Source of the DNA: a virus
Virus record (IMG/VR): IMGVR_UViG_3300024346_000313
Coordinates: 1 to 31,645 of that record
DNA: 31,645 nucleotides
Strand: one strand, 5' to 3'
Made by a program: the position numbers and the translations under genes. Shown one piece after another: positions 5,103 to 14,118 of this stretch; positions within the stretch are counted from its first letter, which is position 1, and every line of letters starts with the position of its first letter. Under the pieces are notes generated by a model that saw only the letters and a program-made list of their open reading frames with translations, made no database searches and was not told where the DNA came from.

Positions 5103-5612
5103 TTGGGCCAAGTCTTATTGCTGAATGCAGATGCACAACCAGTTTCATACTTACCATTGTCCGCTATAAAGTGGAAAGAAGCAATCACCTATCTATGGCT
5201 AGATAAAGTTACAGTATTAGAATGGTATGATAATTGGATGGTTCGAAGTGAAACCTGGGAAACTAGAGTACCAGCAGTAATGATGCTCAAGACTATGCAA
5301 CGCCGTAAACATAAGCCTCGCTTCTCTAAGGCCAATTTGTATGTGCGAGATGTATACACCTGCCAATACTGCAATACTCCTTACACAAAATCCAACTTAA
5401 CATTAGATCACGTAATACCTTTATCAAAGGGTGGAAAGACTTCGTGGACAAACATTGTTGCGGCGTGTGGACCTTGTAACAGCCGTAAAGGCAACAAAAC
5501 ACACATGAAGCCAATTAAAACACCTTATGCTCCTGACTATTACGATCTTGTTAACAAGCGTAAGCAACTAAGGATGGACGTTGTTCATCCAAGTTGGACA
5601 GCATACTTATAA
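5103..5612 (+). CDS. HNH endonuclease, chromosomal alphaproteobacterial type
   Basis: 169 aa from a TTG start that has GGGGGAGG 8 nt upstream; no nearby ATG is better. The C-terminal half holds a Cys4-type HNH domain: CQYC, then LDHVIPLSKGG, then WTNIVAACGPCNSRKG, with two CxxC pairs for zinc and the DH and N residues of the active site. The N-terminal half (LNADAQPVSYLPLSAIKW, EWYDNWMVRS) matches the stand-alone HNH proteins found in many alphaproteobacterial chromosomes rather than homing enzymes. It ends exactly where the convergent SGNH gene ends. Confidence 0.88.
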   Translation: MGQVLLLNADAQPVSYLPLSAIKWKEAITYLWLDKVTVLEWYDNWMVRSETWETRVPAVMMLKTMQRRKHKPRFSKANLYVRDVYTCQYCNTPYTKSNLTLDHVIPLSKGGKTSWTNIVAACGPCNSRKGNKTHMKPIKTPYAPDYYDLVNKRKQLRMDVVHPSWTAYL

Positions 5613-6245
5613 TTACACATAGGAAAACCCAACAGCGGGGCCTGTGCTATCTTTAATCATTTGATCTGCAAAGGCTTGTTGGGTTAGGGCGCCTGGGTGT
5701 TGCCCGTCTCGTGCAAAGTCGAGTATCTCTTTAAGAAACATTTTATCAATAGTGTTTCGTTGTTGAAATACTTTCTGTTTACTACAATGCCAATCAGCAA
5801 AGTAATGATAGTTTTGTATTTTCTTTTTGTTTAGATAGTGTGCTACGTGGTCGACCTTGCCCATTAGATCAACAGTAGCATCGTAATCATTAAACTGATG
5901 TTCAATCCATTTTTTAGATCGTACACTTCCTCTCCATGGCCCAAAGCGGTCAATGTAATCAGGGAATAGAATACAGTTTCGATTAATAAACGGCCAAAGC
6001 ACAACTACCATGTCACCCGGTTTGTGTTTGGCTGACATAATATTGTACCATACTTCTTTAGGACTAGCGCCAGGCTGTCCTCTATTGTCAATTAAGAGTT
6101 TAAGTCGGGCGGCAACTAGGGCTGGCCATGCTTGAACACTAGGGTTAGGTCCTTCTCTACCATTCTCTAGATAACAATCAGCAAGTCCATGCCCGTAAGT
6201 TAAACTGCAACCATAGGTTACAAGTCGCCTTATTACTTTAGCCAA
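5613..6245 (-). CDS. SGNH/GDSL hydrolase-like protein, 210 aa
   Basis: The N-terminus has TYGCSLTYGHG, the block I pattern of SGNH hydrolases with Ser in a GCSxTYG context. NRGQPGAS (about 53-60) fits block II, and GQHPGALTQQAFAD near 187 gives the block V His. A Trp/Phe-rich middle is typical of the phage branch of this family. Substrate unknown: SGNH enzymes cut esters on lipids, glycans or acyl groups. The start is a TTG overlapping the DUF454 gene by 13 nt. Last gene of the leftward aminolevulinate synthase operon. Confidence 0.68.
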   Translation of the reverse strand: MAKVIRRLVTYGCSLTYGHGLADCYLENGREGPNPSVQAWPALVAARLKLLIDNRGQPGASPKEVWYNIMSAKHKPGDMVVVLWPFINRNCILFPDYIDRFGPWRGSVRSKKWIEHQFNDYDATVDLMGKVDHVAHYLNKKKIQNYHYFADWHCSKQKVFQQRNTIDKMFLKEILDFARDGQHPGALTQQAFADQMIKDSTGPAVGFSYV

Positions 6246-6649
6246 CCTACTCTCGTTCCCATTTTAACACGCTTGGCATGTTCTTCTGTTGAGCCAGGAA
6301 AACGCCAAGCCCATATTGCAACTAATACCATAAAGCCGCCGCTCCATAATACAGCCTTAGGATTACCGGTAGTAAACCAAAGTACTGCTACACTTGAACT
6401 CATTGTTAAAAGCATGAAGTATTTGAATTTAGTAGGGAAGACACGCTTCTCTGCCCATCCACGTAGGAAAGGTCCAAACAGTTTATGATTCATGATCCAG
6501 TTGTGCATACGATCGCTTGACTTAGCAAAGCAATATGCGGCGCCAACAGCAGGTGTACTCCAAGGTAGTCCTGGGAGATACACACCAATAAAGGCAACGC
6601 CTAGTAGTAGTATGCCTAAGCAAAACCACAGTGTTTTTTTAATTTTCAT
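6233..6649 (-). CDS. DUF454 (YbaN-like) inner membrane protein, 138 aa
   Basis: Family pattern is clear: LGVAFIGVYLPGLPWSTPAV near the N-terminus, then CFAKSSDRMHNWIMNHKLFGPFLRGW (split by the usual membrane turn), then two more hydrophobic segments around 78-92 and 100-115. DUF454/YbaN proteins are small inner-membrane proteins of unknown function in proteobacteria, with length close to that seen here. It lies 4 nt downstream of aminolevulinate synthase with AGGA as ribosome site, so it is probably co-expressed with it. Host-derived in all likelihood. Confidence 0.85.
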   Translation of the reverse strand: MKIKKTLWFCLGILLLGVAFIGVYLPGLPWSTPAVGAAYCFAKSSDRMHNWIMNHKLFGPFLRGWAEKRVFPTKFKYFMLLTMSSSVAVLWFTTGNPKAVLWSGGFMVLVAIWAWRFPGSTEEHAKRVKMGTRVGWLK

Positions 6650-6653
6650 ATAA

Positions 6654-7856
6654 TTATCCTATAAGTCGTTTAAATGTTTTACGTAAGGCATCTACTAATT
6701 CGTGCATCATTGCATCTGTGTGCAATGGTGTTGGTGCTATTCGTAATCTTTCTTGTCCTACAGCAACAGTAGGATAGTTGATTGGTTGTATAAAAATGTT
6801 GTAATCATTTAACAACATGTCGCTCATCTCTTTGCATAACTTTGCGTCCCTTACCATAACGGGAATAATGTGTGTACACGCAACATCAAGTACTTCTATG
6901 TTTACTTCTTTTAACATATCTTTTAACTTAGCAGTCTTAGATTGTTGTTGCTCACGTAACTCATTGTGGTCTTTTAAATACTTTATAGAGGACAAGGCAC
7001 CAGCACAAAGGACCGGGCTGGTACTAGTGGTGAATATAAATCCACTGGCTACACTGCGGATTGCGTCTATGACCATTCCGTCGCCGGCAACATAACCACC
7101 TTGTACTCCAAAAGCCTTACCCAACGTTCCGTTGATTAGATCAACTCGATCTTCCCCTATCTTTTCACAGTATCCTGCACCAGTTTCTCCATACAAGCCA
7201 ACAGCATGCACTTCATCTATATAGGTCATCGCATCATATTGTTCGGCAAGGTCACAGACACTAGAAATAGGAGAGACATCGCCATCCATGCTATACACAG
7301 ACTCGAAAACTATACATGGTATAAATCCCGCGGCGGCAACTTCTTCTAACTTCTTTTCTAAATCGCTCATATTATTATGTTGCCAAATACGTTTCTCGGC
7401 TCTACTGTTTCGAACCCCTTGGATTAACGAAGCATGATTTTTGCTGTCACTTAAGAAACATATATTTGGAATAATTTTGCTTAAGGCAATGAGTGTCCAT
7501 TCATTAGCGACATATGCACTAGTAAACAGTAATGAACTATCTTTATGATGTAGTTTAGACAGTTCGTTTTCTAGTGCAACATGATAGTGACTTGTGCCGC
7601 CAATGTTTCGCGTACCGCCAGAACCACTTCCTGTTTGGTCTAGTGCAGTATGCATTGAATCGATGACAACCTTGTGTTGTCCCATTCCTAAGTAATCGTT
7701 TGAACACCAGTTAACAATGGTTTTTATATTGTAAGGACCATACCAGATCGCTTCAGGAAACTGTCCGCGTTCACGAACGATATCATTAAAGACCCTATAA
7801 TTGCCTTCGGCTTTAAGAGTCTGTATCTTCTTTTCGAATGGTGCTAGATTTATCAT
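6654..7856 (-). CDS. hemA: 5-aminolevulinate synthase (Shemin pathway)
   Basis: 400 aa, full length. It condenses glycine with succinyl-CoA to 5-aminolevulinate, the first committed step of tetrapyrrole synthesis in Alphaproteobacteria. It is far closer to that enzyme than to related oxoamine synthases: it has [39 protein letters not shown] and [15 protein letters not shown]. The PLP lysine is K247 (K248 if the TTG at 7859 starts it, equal to Rhodobacter numbering), with the D and H of DEVH also present. The C-terminus keeps IQPINYPTV and ERLRIAPTP. There is no ribosome site; translation may be coupled to the overlapping upstream frame or start on a leaderless transcript. All key residues are intact, so it should be active. 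Confidence 0.95.
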
Positions 7857-8010
7857 CAACTGTATTTATGTACGCACTTAACATGTCTCTATGAACTTGA
7901 TGTGTATAAGAACCACCGCTCCAATATACCGTAAACATGCCCATATCTTTAAGTTCGTTCTGTGCCGCGTTGTAATCGTCTAGCATTCGTTTAAAAAATC
8001 TTTTTAACAT
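7813..8010 (-). CDS. Hypothetical protein, 65 aa, upstream of hemA
   Basis: Small basic-to-neutral protein beginning [20 protein letters not shown], overlapping the start of hemA by 44 nt in another frame. The composition is that of a normal protein and its position suggests it couples ribosomes to hemA, which lacks its own ribosome site. Its own site is weak. Function unknown. It could also be a leader frame. Confidence 0.5.
7863..7868 (-). promoter_or_regulatory. Late-type TAAATA box directly before hemA
   Basis: Minus-strand CATAAATAC ends 6 nt before the hemA ATG. If used as a late promoter the transcript would start at or next to the start codon, giving a leaderless message. It lies inside the coding sequence of the upstream 65-aa frame, so it may be chance. 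Confidence 0.3.
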
Positions 8011-9465: not shown

Positions 9466-9624
9466 TTTCTCTAATCCTAAACAAGGAATAAGAATAGATT
9501 GTTTACAGTTATCTGGATAAGCAATCGCTGATCCAAGGATAGGCAGACCAACCATACCAATAATGATAATCAAGAACGCCCAACCTAAACCTTTAGTTGT
9601 GCAATATTGTGTTTGTTCGCTCAT
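9463..9624 (-). CDS. Small membrane protein, 53 aa, paired with pseudoazurin
   Basis: The ATG overlaps the pseudoazurin stop as ATGA, so it is translationally coupled. One hydrophobic segment (about 15-35) with a polar N-terminus (MSEQTQYCTTKG) and a C-terminal tail with two Cys (about residues 40 and 48) that may lie in the periplasm and form a disulfide. A partner or anchor for the copper protein is an inference from position only. Confidence 0.65.
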   Translation of the reverse strand: MSEQTQYCTTKGLGWAFLIIIIGMVGLPILGSAIAYPDNCKQSILIPCLGLEK

Positions 9625-10052
9625 AGATCAGCCAACAATGCTTTTAGTTTTTTCTTTGACTTGCCTTTTACTTTAGCGTCTTTGATAGCGTCAACACCTT
9701 CTTGTGTCAAATCACCTACAACAACAATAGCAATCATGCCCATGCTCTTATGTGGTGAACATTGATACAAGTAAACGCCCGGCGTGTCAAATGTATATGT
9801 ATATTCTTTTGATAGTTTTGATTTCTTTGGTGCTTTCCAACCATCTGGTCCTGCAATGAATTCTACATTGTGACCTTTCTGTGTTGGCAACCATGTGATC
9901 GAATCTCCAACTTCAATAGTTGAGATGTCTTCACTGTATACCATTTTAGCGCCATCGTCACGCTTGTTCAACATGTCAACGGAAATATCTGCGGCTAGTG
10001 CCGGAGTTGATAGTAGACCCATGAGGGCTACTGTAGATAGTAAATTCTTCAT
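9621..10052 (-). CDS. Pseudoazurin-like type I copper protein
   Basis: 143 aa from the ATG at 10052, where GGAAAC gives a ribosome site; a longer frame to 10109 is not needed. Residues 1-20 are a signal peptide ending ALA. The mature part follows pseudoazurin: a VDMLNKRDDGAKMVYS start, EVGDSITWLP, KGHNVEF and CSPHKSMGM. The four copper ligands are H61, C98, H101 and M106, with the same spacing as H40, C78, H81 and M86 of mature pseudoazurin. The lysine-rich tail of about 25 residues extends past the copper domain. In bacteria it carries electrons in the periplasm to nitrite or other reductases. Has its own sigma70-type promoter. Confidence 0.9.
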   Translation of the reverse strand: MKNLLSTVALMGLLSTPALAADISVDMLNKRDDGAKMVYSEDISTIEVGDSITWLPTQKGHNVEFIAGPDGWKAPKKSKLSKEYTYTFDTPGVYLYQCSPHKSMGMIAIVVVGDLTQEGVDAIKDAKVKGKSKKKLKALLADL

Positions 10053-10099
10053 GTGTGTTTCCTTTGTGTATATGTGTAGTATGCTATTAGCATGTATAA

Positions 10100-10128
10100 T
10101 ATATAGCACGGATCAACCCAAGGGTCAA
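10100..10128 (-). promoter_or_regulatory. Leftward promoter of the pseudoazurin unit
   Basis: Minus strand TTGACC (10128-10123), 17-nt spacer, TATATA (10105-10100), with TGC before the -10. The leader then has a small ATGCT/AGCAT hairpin and ACACATATACACA ahead of the ribosome site. Confidence 0.7.
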
Positions 10129-11372: not shown

Positions 11373-12332
11373 ATGGACGCACTCACCACATGGAGCCTAA
11401 TTGGGTTCCTATTCGCTGCCTATGCAGTAATAGCAAATGATTCAGTACAAACTCTCGGTACATGGATGGCATCAAACAATGAGAGATTCAACTATAAAAT
11501 ATTATGGGGAGCCGCAAGTGCAGTGTTACTTGTAACCTTATGGTATGGCTGGTATGTAAACGGCGGTGACATTAGTTACGGCAGACTAAACAAAATTCCA
11601 TGGCAAGAGGTACAATGGTATCATGCTATGGCACCGGGCATACTTGTTATACTAACACGCTTTGGTGTACCTGTATCAACTTCCTTTCTAGTACTAAGTG
11701 CTTTCGCAAGTACATTTGTATTAGAGAAGATGCTTATGAAATCAATAATGGGCTACGGCATTGCGGCAATGTTCGCATACTTTGCTTGGTACTTTATTAG
11801 TAGAGTAATGGACGAAACAGCACCAGTCAAAGAAGAACATAAGGACTATTGGCGTGTTGCACAGTGGGTAGCAACAGGCGGCTTGTGGTGGACATGGCTG
11901 AGTCATGACATGGCTAACATTGCAGTGTTCCTTCCACGTGAAGTTCCGCTGGACCTAATGTTCCTAGTTAGCGTAGTATTTGTTATTGGCTTGTTCTTTA
12001 TGTTTAGAGAACGTGGAGGCAAGATACAAAATATTGTACTAGAAAAGCACAACACAAGATATGTGCGTAGTGCTACACTAATTGATTTATTCTATTGGTT
12101 GTGTTTGTACTTCTTCAAAGAACTAAACGATATACCTATGTCAACTACTTGGGTGTTCGTTGGTATGCTTGCAGGACGTGAACTTGCTATTGCATCGTTT
12201 ACAGGCAAGATGAAGTTCAAGAGTGTGTTTCCTTTGGTAGCACGAGACTTCCAGAAGATGATGATAGGACTAGGTGCATCAGTAGCCATTGTGCTAATGA
12301 TACATTATATATTAGTACCAAACGGTTATTAA
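11373..12332 (+). CDS. PiT-family (PHO4-like) phosphate permease
   Basis: 319 aa with eight or more hydrophobic segments. PiT transporters contain two inverted halves, each with a GxND motif and a PVST motif. Here the first half has IANDSVQTLGTW (D23) and GVPVSTSF (98-105); the second has LSHDMANIAVFLPRE (D179) and IPMSTTWVF (254-262). It therefore probably imports inorganic phosphate across the inner membrane, coupled to H+ or Na+. Shorter than typical PitA (about 500 aa), mainly from a smaller central loop. Single-gene unit with its own promoter, structured leader and terminator. Substrate is inferred from the family. Confidence 0.82.
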   Translation: MDALTTWSLIGFLFAAYAVIANDSVQTLGTWMASNNERFNYKILWGAASAVLLVTLWYGWYVNGGDISYGRLNKIPWQEVQWYHAMAPGILVILTRFGVPVSTSFLVLSAFASTFVLEKMLMKSIMGYGIAAMFAYFAWYFISRVMDETAPVKEEHKDYWRVAQWVATGGLWWTWLSHDMANIAVFLPREVPLDLMFLVSVVFVIGLFFMFRERGGKIQNIVLEKHNTRYVRSATLIDLFYWLCLYFFKELNDIPMSTTWVFVGMLAGRELAIASFTGKMKFKSVFPLVARDFQKMMIGLGASVAIVLMIHYILVPNGY

Positions 12333-12398: not shown

Positions 12399-12430
12399 TA
12401 GTTTATACATTGTACAAATGGAGACTACTG

Positions 12431-13183
12431 TTGAAAATAGGAATAGCAGGCTATGGGTTTGTAGGCAAGGCACATGAACTTATTCTAAAAGACTACCACG
12501 ATCTTATTATATATGACCCTGCACTAGGACACTACGGTGACCTAAGACATGCAGATGCAACTATTATTTGCGTAAGCACACCAGAAGGATCACATGGCGG
12601 ATGTCATATGGACAATGTATACTGCATTGTTGAAGACAATCCTAATGTACCTATATTAATTAAAAGCACAATTTCAGTAGAAGGTTGGAAAATGTTACAG
12701 CATGTGTATCCGCATACTGATATTGCATTTAGTCCTGAGTTCCTACGTGCGGCGCATTGGGAAACAGATGCACAACTGCAAGATAAAATTTATGTAGGAG
12801 GTAAGAACACAGGCTTTTGGGCAGATATTTTTATTACAGCATTGGGTAAGATTGATGTAGAGATTGCAAAACCAGAAGAATTAATTACAGCAAAGGCAGT
12901 AAGAAATAGTTTCTTAGCACTAAAAGTTAGTTTCTTTAATCAAGTATATGATTATTGCAAAGCACAGAATATAGACTACGACTCAGTTGCAGACGTTGTT
13001 GGAGACGACAGCAGGATAACAAGGAGTCACACACAAATTACAGAAGAACGAGGTTTTGGAGGACATTGTTTCCCTAAAGACGCAAAGGCATTTACTACAA
13101 GTGCAAAACAACAGGGCGTTGAATTGAGTATACTTGACGCCGCCATACAATATAACAACGACATAAGAAAGGGAACCACTTGA
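12431..13183 (+). CDS. Short UDP-glucose/GDP-mannose dehydrogenase-like protein
   Basis: Start placed at a TTG at 12431 ([19 protein letters not shown]) with GGAG 7 nt upstream; a TTG at 12410 would add seven residues without benefit. 250 aa: an NAD-binding Rossmann domain with [15 protein letters not shown], and FSPEFLRAA, then the central helical domain with the catalytic Cys in FGGHCFPKD (C213, K216). The C-terminal UDP-binding domain of full-size enzymes (about 390-440 aa) is missing. It may oxidise a nucleotide sugar in a reduced form, or bind a different sugar. It overlaps the prs reading frame end to start. Confidence 0.8.
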
Positions 13184-13185
13184 AA

Positions 13186-14118
13186 ATGAAAATCATCACG
13201 GGAAACGCTAACCCGAAATTAGCACAACAGATCGCAGAGCATTGTTTTGCTGATCTTGTTCCAGCAACAGTTTCTACATTTGCGGACGGTGAGACTAGTG
13301 TAGAGTTTAATGAGAACATTCGTGGAGAAGATGTTTTTATTGTTCAAAGCACAGCAATGCCAGTTAATGATAGTTTAATGGAACTGTTGATAATGATTGA
13401 TGCCGCAAGACGTTCAAGTGCAAGTAGAATTACAGCAGTTATTCCTTACTTTGGTTATGCTAGACAAGATCGTAAGAGTGCTTCACGTACACCTATCACA
13501 GCAAAACTAGTTGCTAACTTATTAGTTACAGCAGGTGCAGATAGAATCCTTACAATGGATTTACACGCAGGACAAATACAGGGCTTCTTTGATATTCCAG
13601 TAGACGACTTAACAAGCCGTGTTGTATTTGCTAAAGACATTGGACGTAACGTCAACACAACAGAAGGTGCAGTGTTTGTATCACCAGATGCAGGCGGAGT
13701 TGTTCGTGCTAGAAAATTTGCAGACATGTTCCATGCAGACATTGCTATAGTAGATAAGATGCGTCCGTCAGCAGGTAAAAGCGAAGTCATGAACTTGATC
13801 GGCGATGTTAAAGGTAAACACGCCATTCTGGTTGATGATATTGTTGACTCAGGTGGCACACTATGTAATGCGGCTAAAGCAATTATGGATGCAGGTGCGT
13901 TGAGTGTTAGAGCATACATCACACACGGAGTACTATCAGGCGAGGCATGTCAAAAGGTTGAGAAGTCAGTGCTAGACGAATTAGTAGTTACAGATACTAT
14001 TGCAGATCGTTGTCCTAAGAATTGTAAAAAGACACGACAGGTTAGTGTTGCGCCTTTGTTTGGTGAGGCAATGAGACGAGTTACTAACGAGGAATCAGTC
14101 AGCAGTTTATTTGTGTAA
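13186..14118 (+). CDS. prs: Ribose-phosphate diphosphokinase (PRPP synthetase)
   Basis: 310 aa from the ATG at 13186; a TTG at 13180 overlaps the upstream stop and has better ribosome-site spacing (GGGA 5 nt before), so it may be the true start. It makes PRPP from ribose 5-phosphate and ATP for nucleotide and NAD synthesis. Motifs: [10 protein letters not shown] near the N-terminus, ATP-site [11 protein letters not shown], metal-site [17 protein letters not shown] and PRPP-loop [12 protein letters not shown]. Full-length class I type. prs genes occur in other large marine phages, sometimes with NAD salvage genes, none of which is in this window. Confidence 0.95.

Follow-up and report, generated by a model that had tools for sequence, protein, structure and literature searches.

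Genes for 5-aminolevulinate synthase (ALAS) are already known from aquatic phages, as the initial annotation of the DNA considered here had stated. Both phage synthase genes (valaS) and hemO–pcyA/X–valaS cassettes have been described (Wegner et al. 2024; PMC11480375), and one phage homologue, CB_2, is active, as judged by complementation of an E. coli strain auxotrophic for 5-ALA (PMC11480375). Estuarine data also show that alaS genes and transcripts of the viral fraction rise with salinity (PMC13390420). A bacterial parallel, as told in PMC11480375, is the hemO–pcyA–alaS island of Bradyrhizobium ORS278, a clustered tetrapyrrole set that holds alaS, as the phage locus does, but that is bacterial and includes a phytochrome gene. 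A phage ALAS as such is therefore already known; what is newly noticed here is its strongly conserved partner, a protein of the DUF454 family.

The stretch of DNA that we analyzed (the window) is a virus fragment of 31,645 bases recorded in IMG/VR. Its source is a marine T4-like phage, and its NrdB is 64–66% identical to the NrdB proteins of T4-like cyanophages and of the Pelagibacter myophage Mosig. Four frames that the initial annotation had grouped together are all present on the minus strand, where they are read in the following order: a small frame of 65 codons (7813–8010), a candidate gene of unsure coding status; the ALAS gene (6654–7856; 400 amino acids from the ATG at 7856, with a TTG at 7859 as an alternative start in an open frame spanning 6654–7859); a gene for a YbaN-like DUF454 protein, a predicted small membrane protein (6233–6649; 138 amino acids); and a gene for a putative SGNH/GDSL-type hydrolase (5613–6245; 210 amino acids). 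The small frame overlaps the start of ALAS by 44 nucleotides, 4 nucleotides separate the ALAS stop from the DUF454 start, and the DUF454 and SGNH genes overlap by 13 nucleotides. Because the block is flanked on both sides by plus-strand genes (at 5103–5612 and from 8049), and because of the 4-nucleotide gap and the 13-nucleotide overlap, it is plausible that the four frames form a single transcription unit. No RNA families were found in the window, and promoter-like sites were no more numerous in it than in shuffled sequence.

Several other genes of the window deserve mention. A gene at 11373–12332 (plus strand) encodes a membrane protein of 319 amino acids that is 84–100% identical among the best 80 IMG/VR loci; it had no match in Pfam, NCBIfam, or PHROG and none in deposited phages, and its NDS and PVSTS motifs resemble those of phosphate permeases. 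A pseudoazurin-like blue-copper protein is encoded at 9621–10109 (minus strand; 101.6 bits to TIGR02375, just under the cut-off of 109.85), and a blue-copper gene also lies near ALAS in several related phages. There is also a YqgE/AlgH-like gene (PF02622; 4010–4564, plus strand), and 32 of 80 loci have a counterpart close to ALAS. Also on the plus strand are a gene for a NifU-like domain protein (PF01106; 24029–24364), possibly iron-related, and a UDP-glucose dehydrogenase-like gene followed by one for ribose-phosphate pyrophosphokinase (12410–14118).

Judging from its sequence, the frame at 6654–7856 is an intact ALAS, in keeping with the earlier description of a full-length, active-looking enzyme. 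It scored 553.1 bits against TIGR01821, whose curated equivalog cut-off is 338.55, whereas the best rival model, that for glycine C-acetyltransferase, gave 320 bits against its own cut-off of 460, and every other synthase model likewise fell under its own cut-off. The PDB matches were the ALAS structure 7x98 (439 bits) and the ALAS of R. capsulatus (2bwn; 404 bits). We aligned the window protein with the latter and compared residues taken to be functionally important. Window residues R21, N53, T82, N84, I85, H141, D214, H217, K247, and R372 correspond to R21, N54, T83, N85, I86, H142, D214, H217, K248, and R374, respectively, of the R. capsulatus enzyme. The lysine that binds PLP and the substrate-binding residues are among them (K247, D214, H217, H141, R21, N53, T82, and R372), and the aligned active-site residues are invariant across 29 phage ALAS sequences; the active site is thus intact. 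In-frame stops were flagged in a few relatives, and the two that we checked were the gene's own terminal stop. By analogy with the active homologue CB_2, the window enzyme would be expected to form 5-aminolevulinate from glycine and succinyl-CoA.

The window ALAS shares with the valaS products (PMC11480375) its setting in an aquatic T4-like phage and an identity of about 55% to alphaproteobacterial ALAS. The valaS products also often lack heme-feedback residues, and the window agrees: the position of His342 of R. capsulatus ALAS, known for heme feedback, is occupied by leucine, and there is no cysteine among the last residues. Because the known feedback histidine is absent, the enzyme should stay active when heme is plentiful, an expectation drawn from the sequence together with the characterized phage homologue. 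The locus differs from valaS in two respects. First, hemO and pcyA/X often lie beside valaS, whereas in relatives of the window a heme oxygenase gene, where present, usually lies at a great distance from ALAS in the genome; a scan of the window frames near ALAS gave no hemO or pcyA/X match, and a distant copy may lie outside the fragment. Second, the main text of PMC11480375 names no DUF454, whereas the window ALAS is paired with one.

A scan of IMG/VR yielded 496 related ALAS loci, of which the best 80 are 69–82% identical to the window protein. Bacterial ALAS reach at most 56% identity, and the best of them are alphaproteobacterial. A search of 50,697 phage records, a set that may omit close ones, gave matches only below 60% identity, of the KBL/BioF kind where annotated, so that no deposited phage in the set was found to carry this ALAS. 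We also constructed a quick maximum-likelihood tree with SH-aLRT support (no bootstrap; CB_2 sequence not included), whose root is uncertain given the great length of the outgroup branch. In this tree 31 phage ALAS, the window's included, formed one clade (SH-aLRT 99) apart from bacterial ALAS, and the window sequence sat among ALAS proteins and not with KBL; the phylogeny for which the initial annotation had called thus places it in a phage ALAS clade and not with another oxoamine synthase. Three other phage ALAS (records G077, G088, and G090) formed a second clade inside the bacterial part of the tree, which suggests that phages may have acquired ALAS twice. The loci L573, L574, and L575 represent this second, apparently separately acquired lineage, which lies inside alphaproteobacterial ALAS, and the phages concerned also carry DUF454 and heme oxygenase genes, DUF454 being 12–21 kb from ALAS.

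DUF454 is the usual partner of ALAS among these phages. Counted over 86 distinct phage ALAS sequences, 65 had a DUF454 gene no more than 1 kb away on the same strand, 57 downstream (43 of them within 60 nucleotides) and eight upstream within 425 nucleotides (five of the eight overlapping). At a limit of 60 nucleotides, 48 of the 86 retained the partner, 43 downstream and five upstream, so that spacing as well as pairing is conserved. DUF454 was farther away on the same strand in three cases and on the other strand in four; ten ALAS genes had no DUF454 close by, although both flanks reached 1.5 kb, and four loci were cut by contig ends. The two genes overlap by 11 nucleotides in one locus (L009), and in another (L165) the order is reversed, with an ATGA overlap of DUF454 and ALAS. 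Across 80 loci the pair was retained where other neighboring genes differ. The pairing with DUF454, part of the neighborhood that had been thought unusual, is in fact common among these phages.

The association extends to longer records and to searches started from other genes. DUF454 was present in all 24 records of at least 33 kb found with ALAS as bait; in three of these records the two genes lie about 26 kb apart. Related records of at least 30 kb found with other baits contained both genes in three cases (in one of which only the start of ALAS is visible, at a contig end), ALAS alone in one, DUF454 alone in two, and neither in 18 (Fisher p 0.018; the relatedness of the phages, for which no correction was made, inflates these and all of the pairing counts). 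DUF454 was therefore present in two of the 20 ALAS-less records, and the ALAS-alone record, of 91 kb, had no DUF454. Conversely, a search begun from DUF454 found ALAS within about 3 kb in 48 of 80 loci. An independent-pairs test on a tree of HNH left only three well-supported independent pairs, too few to be of use.

It is likely that phages assembled the pair, since DUF454 did not occur within 5 kb of hemA in any of 80 alphaproteobacterial loci, whereas 80 phage ALAS loci searched with that HMM gave 63 DUF454 frames. On these 80 bacterial loci, a hemA–DUF454 operon is rejected as the source of the pair. The proposed search for hemA beside DUF454 was thus positive for phages and negative for alphaproteobacteria. 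A regular partnership of ALAS and DUF454 appears to be unreported in the literature that we searched, in which the papers naming DUF454 are not on phages.

The other two members of the block are a different matter. The initial annotation had linked all four frames, and this stands for DUF454; the SGNH gene and the small frame are local additions that give no functional hint for the unit. A relative of the SGNH-like protein occurred within 5 kb of ALAS in six of 80 loci (nearest full match in L343, 71%), and a frame similar to the small one in three of 80. The SGNH-like protein had no Pfam or PHROG match; its motifs GCSxTxG, N, and DGxHP are visible, and its model, of low confidence (pLDDT 55.8), had PDB matches among SGNH/GDSL esterases (best E 9e-5). 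The small frame had no family match in Pfam, NCBIfam, or PHROG.

The DUF454 protein of the window matched PF04304 with an E-value of 3.7e-27 (95.1 bits; gathering cut-off 35.1) and fell below the narrower NCBI model NF007818 (56 versus 163). Its AlphaFold model is small and all-helical (mean pLDDT 85.8), and a PDB search with the model gave no clearly similar solved fold and no transporter fold; the protein is probably located in the membrane. Phage DUF454 proteins are 42–88% identical to it and bacterial ones 23–33%. E. coli YbaN belongs to the same curated family and is likewise a small helical protein predicted in the membrane, but the phage members adjoin ALAS. The ybaN gene is part of the conserved Fur regulon (PMC10164565, PMC7157518), and DUF454 is raised by iron restriction in Avibacterium.

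Elsewhere, DUF454 sometimes keeps company with genes for heme. DUF454 and heme oxygenase are both enriched close to T11SS genes (PMC12282271). We found DUF454 adjoining heme oxygenase in two Acinetobacter contexts and on one Pseudoalteromonas plasmid, in one case with a TonB-dependent receptor between; most of the plasmid contexts examined were without a heme gene. One phage locus (L240) has DUF454 near hemO and a PcyA-like gene, and no ALAS was found in that 65-kb record. In four genomes (L494, L495, L502, and L503) DUF454 and hemW, both on one strand and beside parB, overlap or abut. A general bacterial adjacency of DUF454 and hemO is nevertheless rejected: in an even sample of 78 Pseudomonadota DUF454 loci, for which a positive control passed and about half had 5-kb flanks, neither heme oxygenase nor ALAS occurred in the available flanks, and genes resembling apt and dnaX were the most frequent neighbors. 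Nor is heme oxygenase a specific companion of DUF454, because nine of 21 related phage records lacking DUF454 carry it; among related phages it is common whether or not they have DUF454.

How might the two proteins act together? We propose, and give an even chance to, the explanation that the locus is a phage tetrapyrrole unit in which a deregulated ALAS is joined by a DUF454 protein that assists, at the inner membrane, in handling heme or iron. On this proposal the phage ALAS, if expressed as we presume, would raise 5-aminolevulinate during infection. DUF454, which is probably translated from the ALAS message and whose frame overlaps that of ALAS in some phages, would reside in the host inner membrane and help to convert the extra precursor to usable heme, or balance iron and heme there; its biochemical action might be on the flux of iron or of heme and porphyrin, which is a guess. 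The suggestion in the initial annotation that DUF454 serves the same process as the synthase holds insofar as the two genes are truly linked and their linkage hints at what DUF454 does; it is association that points to a common process and to a part for DUF454 in heme or iron handling.

A serious contender, if on balance a doubtful one, is that the pair has been kept by shared ancestry together with a favored site for accessory genes, and that DUF454 has an unrelated membrane function of its own. HNH and YqgE neighbors are also often common to the loci, DUF454 in bacteria is mostly beside other genes, and the distance correlation of ALAS and DUF454 in a mirror-tree comparison was no better than that of ALAS and the neighboring HNH gene, which gives no excess of co-evolution. 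Such inheritance accords poorly, however, with a pair that survives changing flanks, both gene orders, and overlaps, with long ALAS records that hold DUF454 even about 26 kb away, and with two apparent acquisitions of ALAS, each with DUF454 in the genome.

A stronger form of our proposal, which we put forward tentatively and consider rather unlikely, would make DUF454 a dedicated tetrapyrrole protein, one that phages have paired more than once with a deregulated ALAS and that might, for example, act as its partner in the membrane to deliver, protect, or move heme, porphyrin, or ALA. A narrower form, which keeps the iron branch of the heme- or iron-handling explanation alone, and which we judge unlikely, is that DUF454 serves iron supply as part of a Fur-type iron economy, and that the iron demand of heme production is the sole reason for its pairing with ALAS. 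The Fur regulation of ybaN, the response in Avibacterium, and the presence in the window of a NifU-like Fe-S protein are in its favor, but neither a transporter fold nor a solved relative of DUF454 was found, and adjacency to hemW and hemO points equally to heme. Finally, that the synthase is instead another oxoamine synthase (KBL, BioF, or serine palmitoyltransferase) is very improbable and is rejected: these enzymes share a fold family and their models gave weaker matches, but all the scores lay below the respective cut-offs and the tree places the window sequence among ALAS.

The proposal of a tetrapyrrole unit bears on both partners. The pairing suggests that phages may manage the fate of the extra precursor, beyond merely raising its level, and it singles out DUF454, a functionally uncharacterized family whose E. 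coli member is controlled by Fur, as a candidate for a testable role in the handling of heme or iron. Should DUF454 prove to be a dedicated tetrapyrrole protein, this would provide a function for the widespread, Fur-controlled YbaN family.
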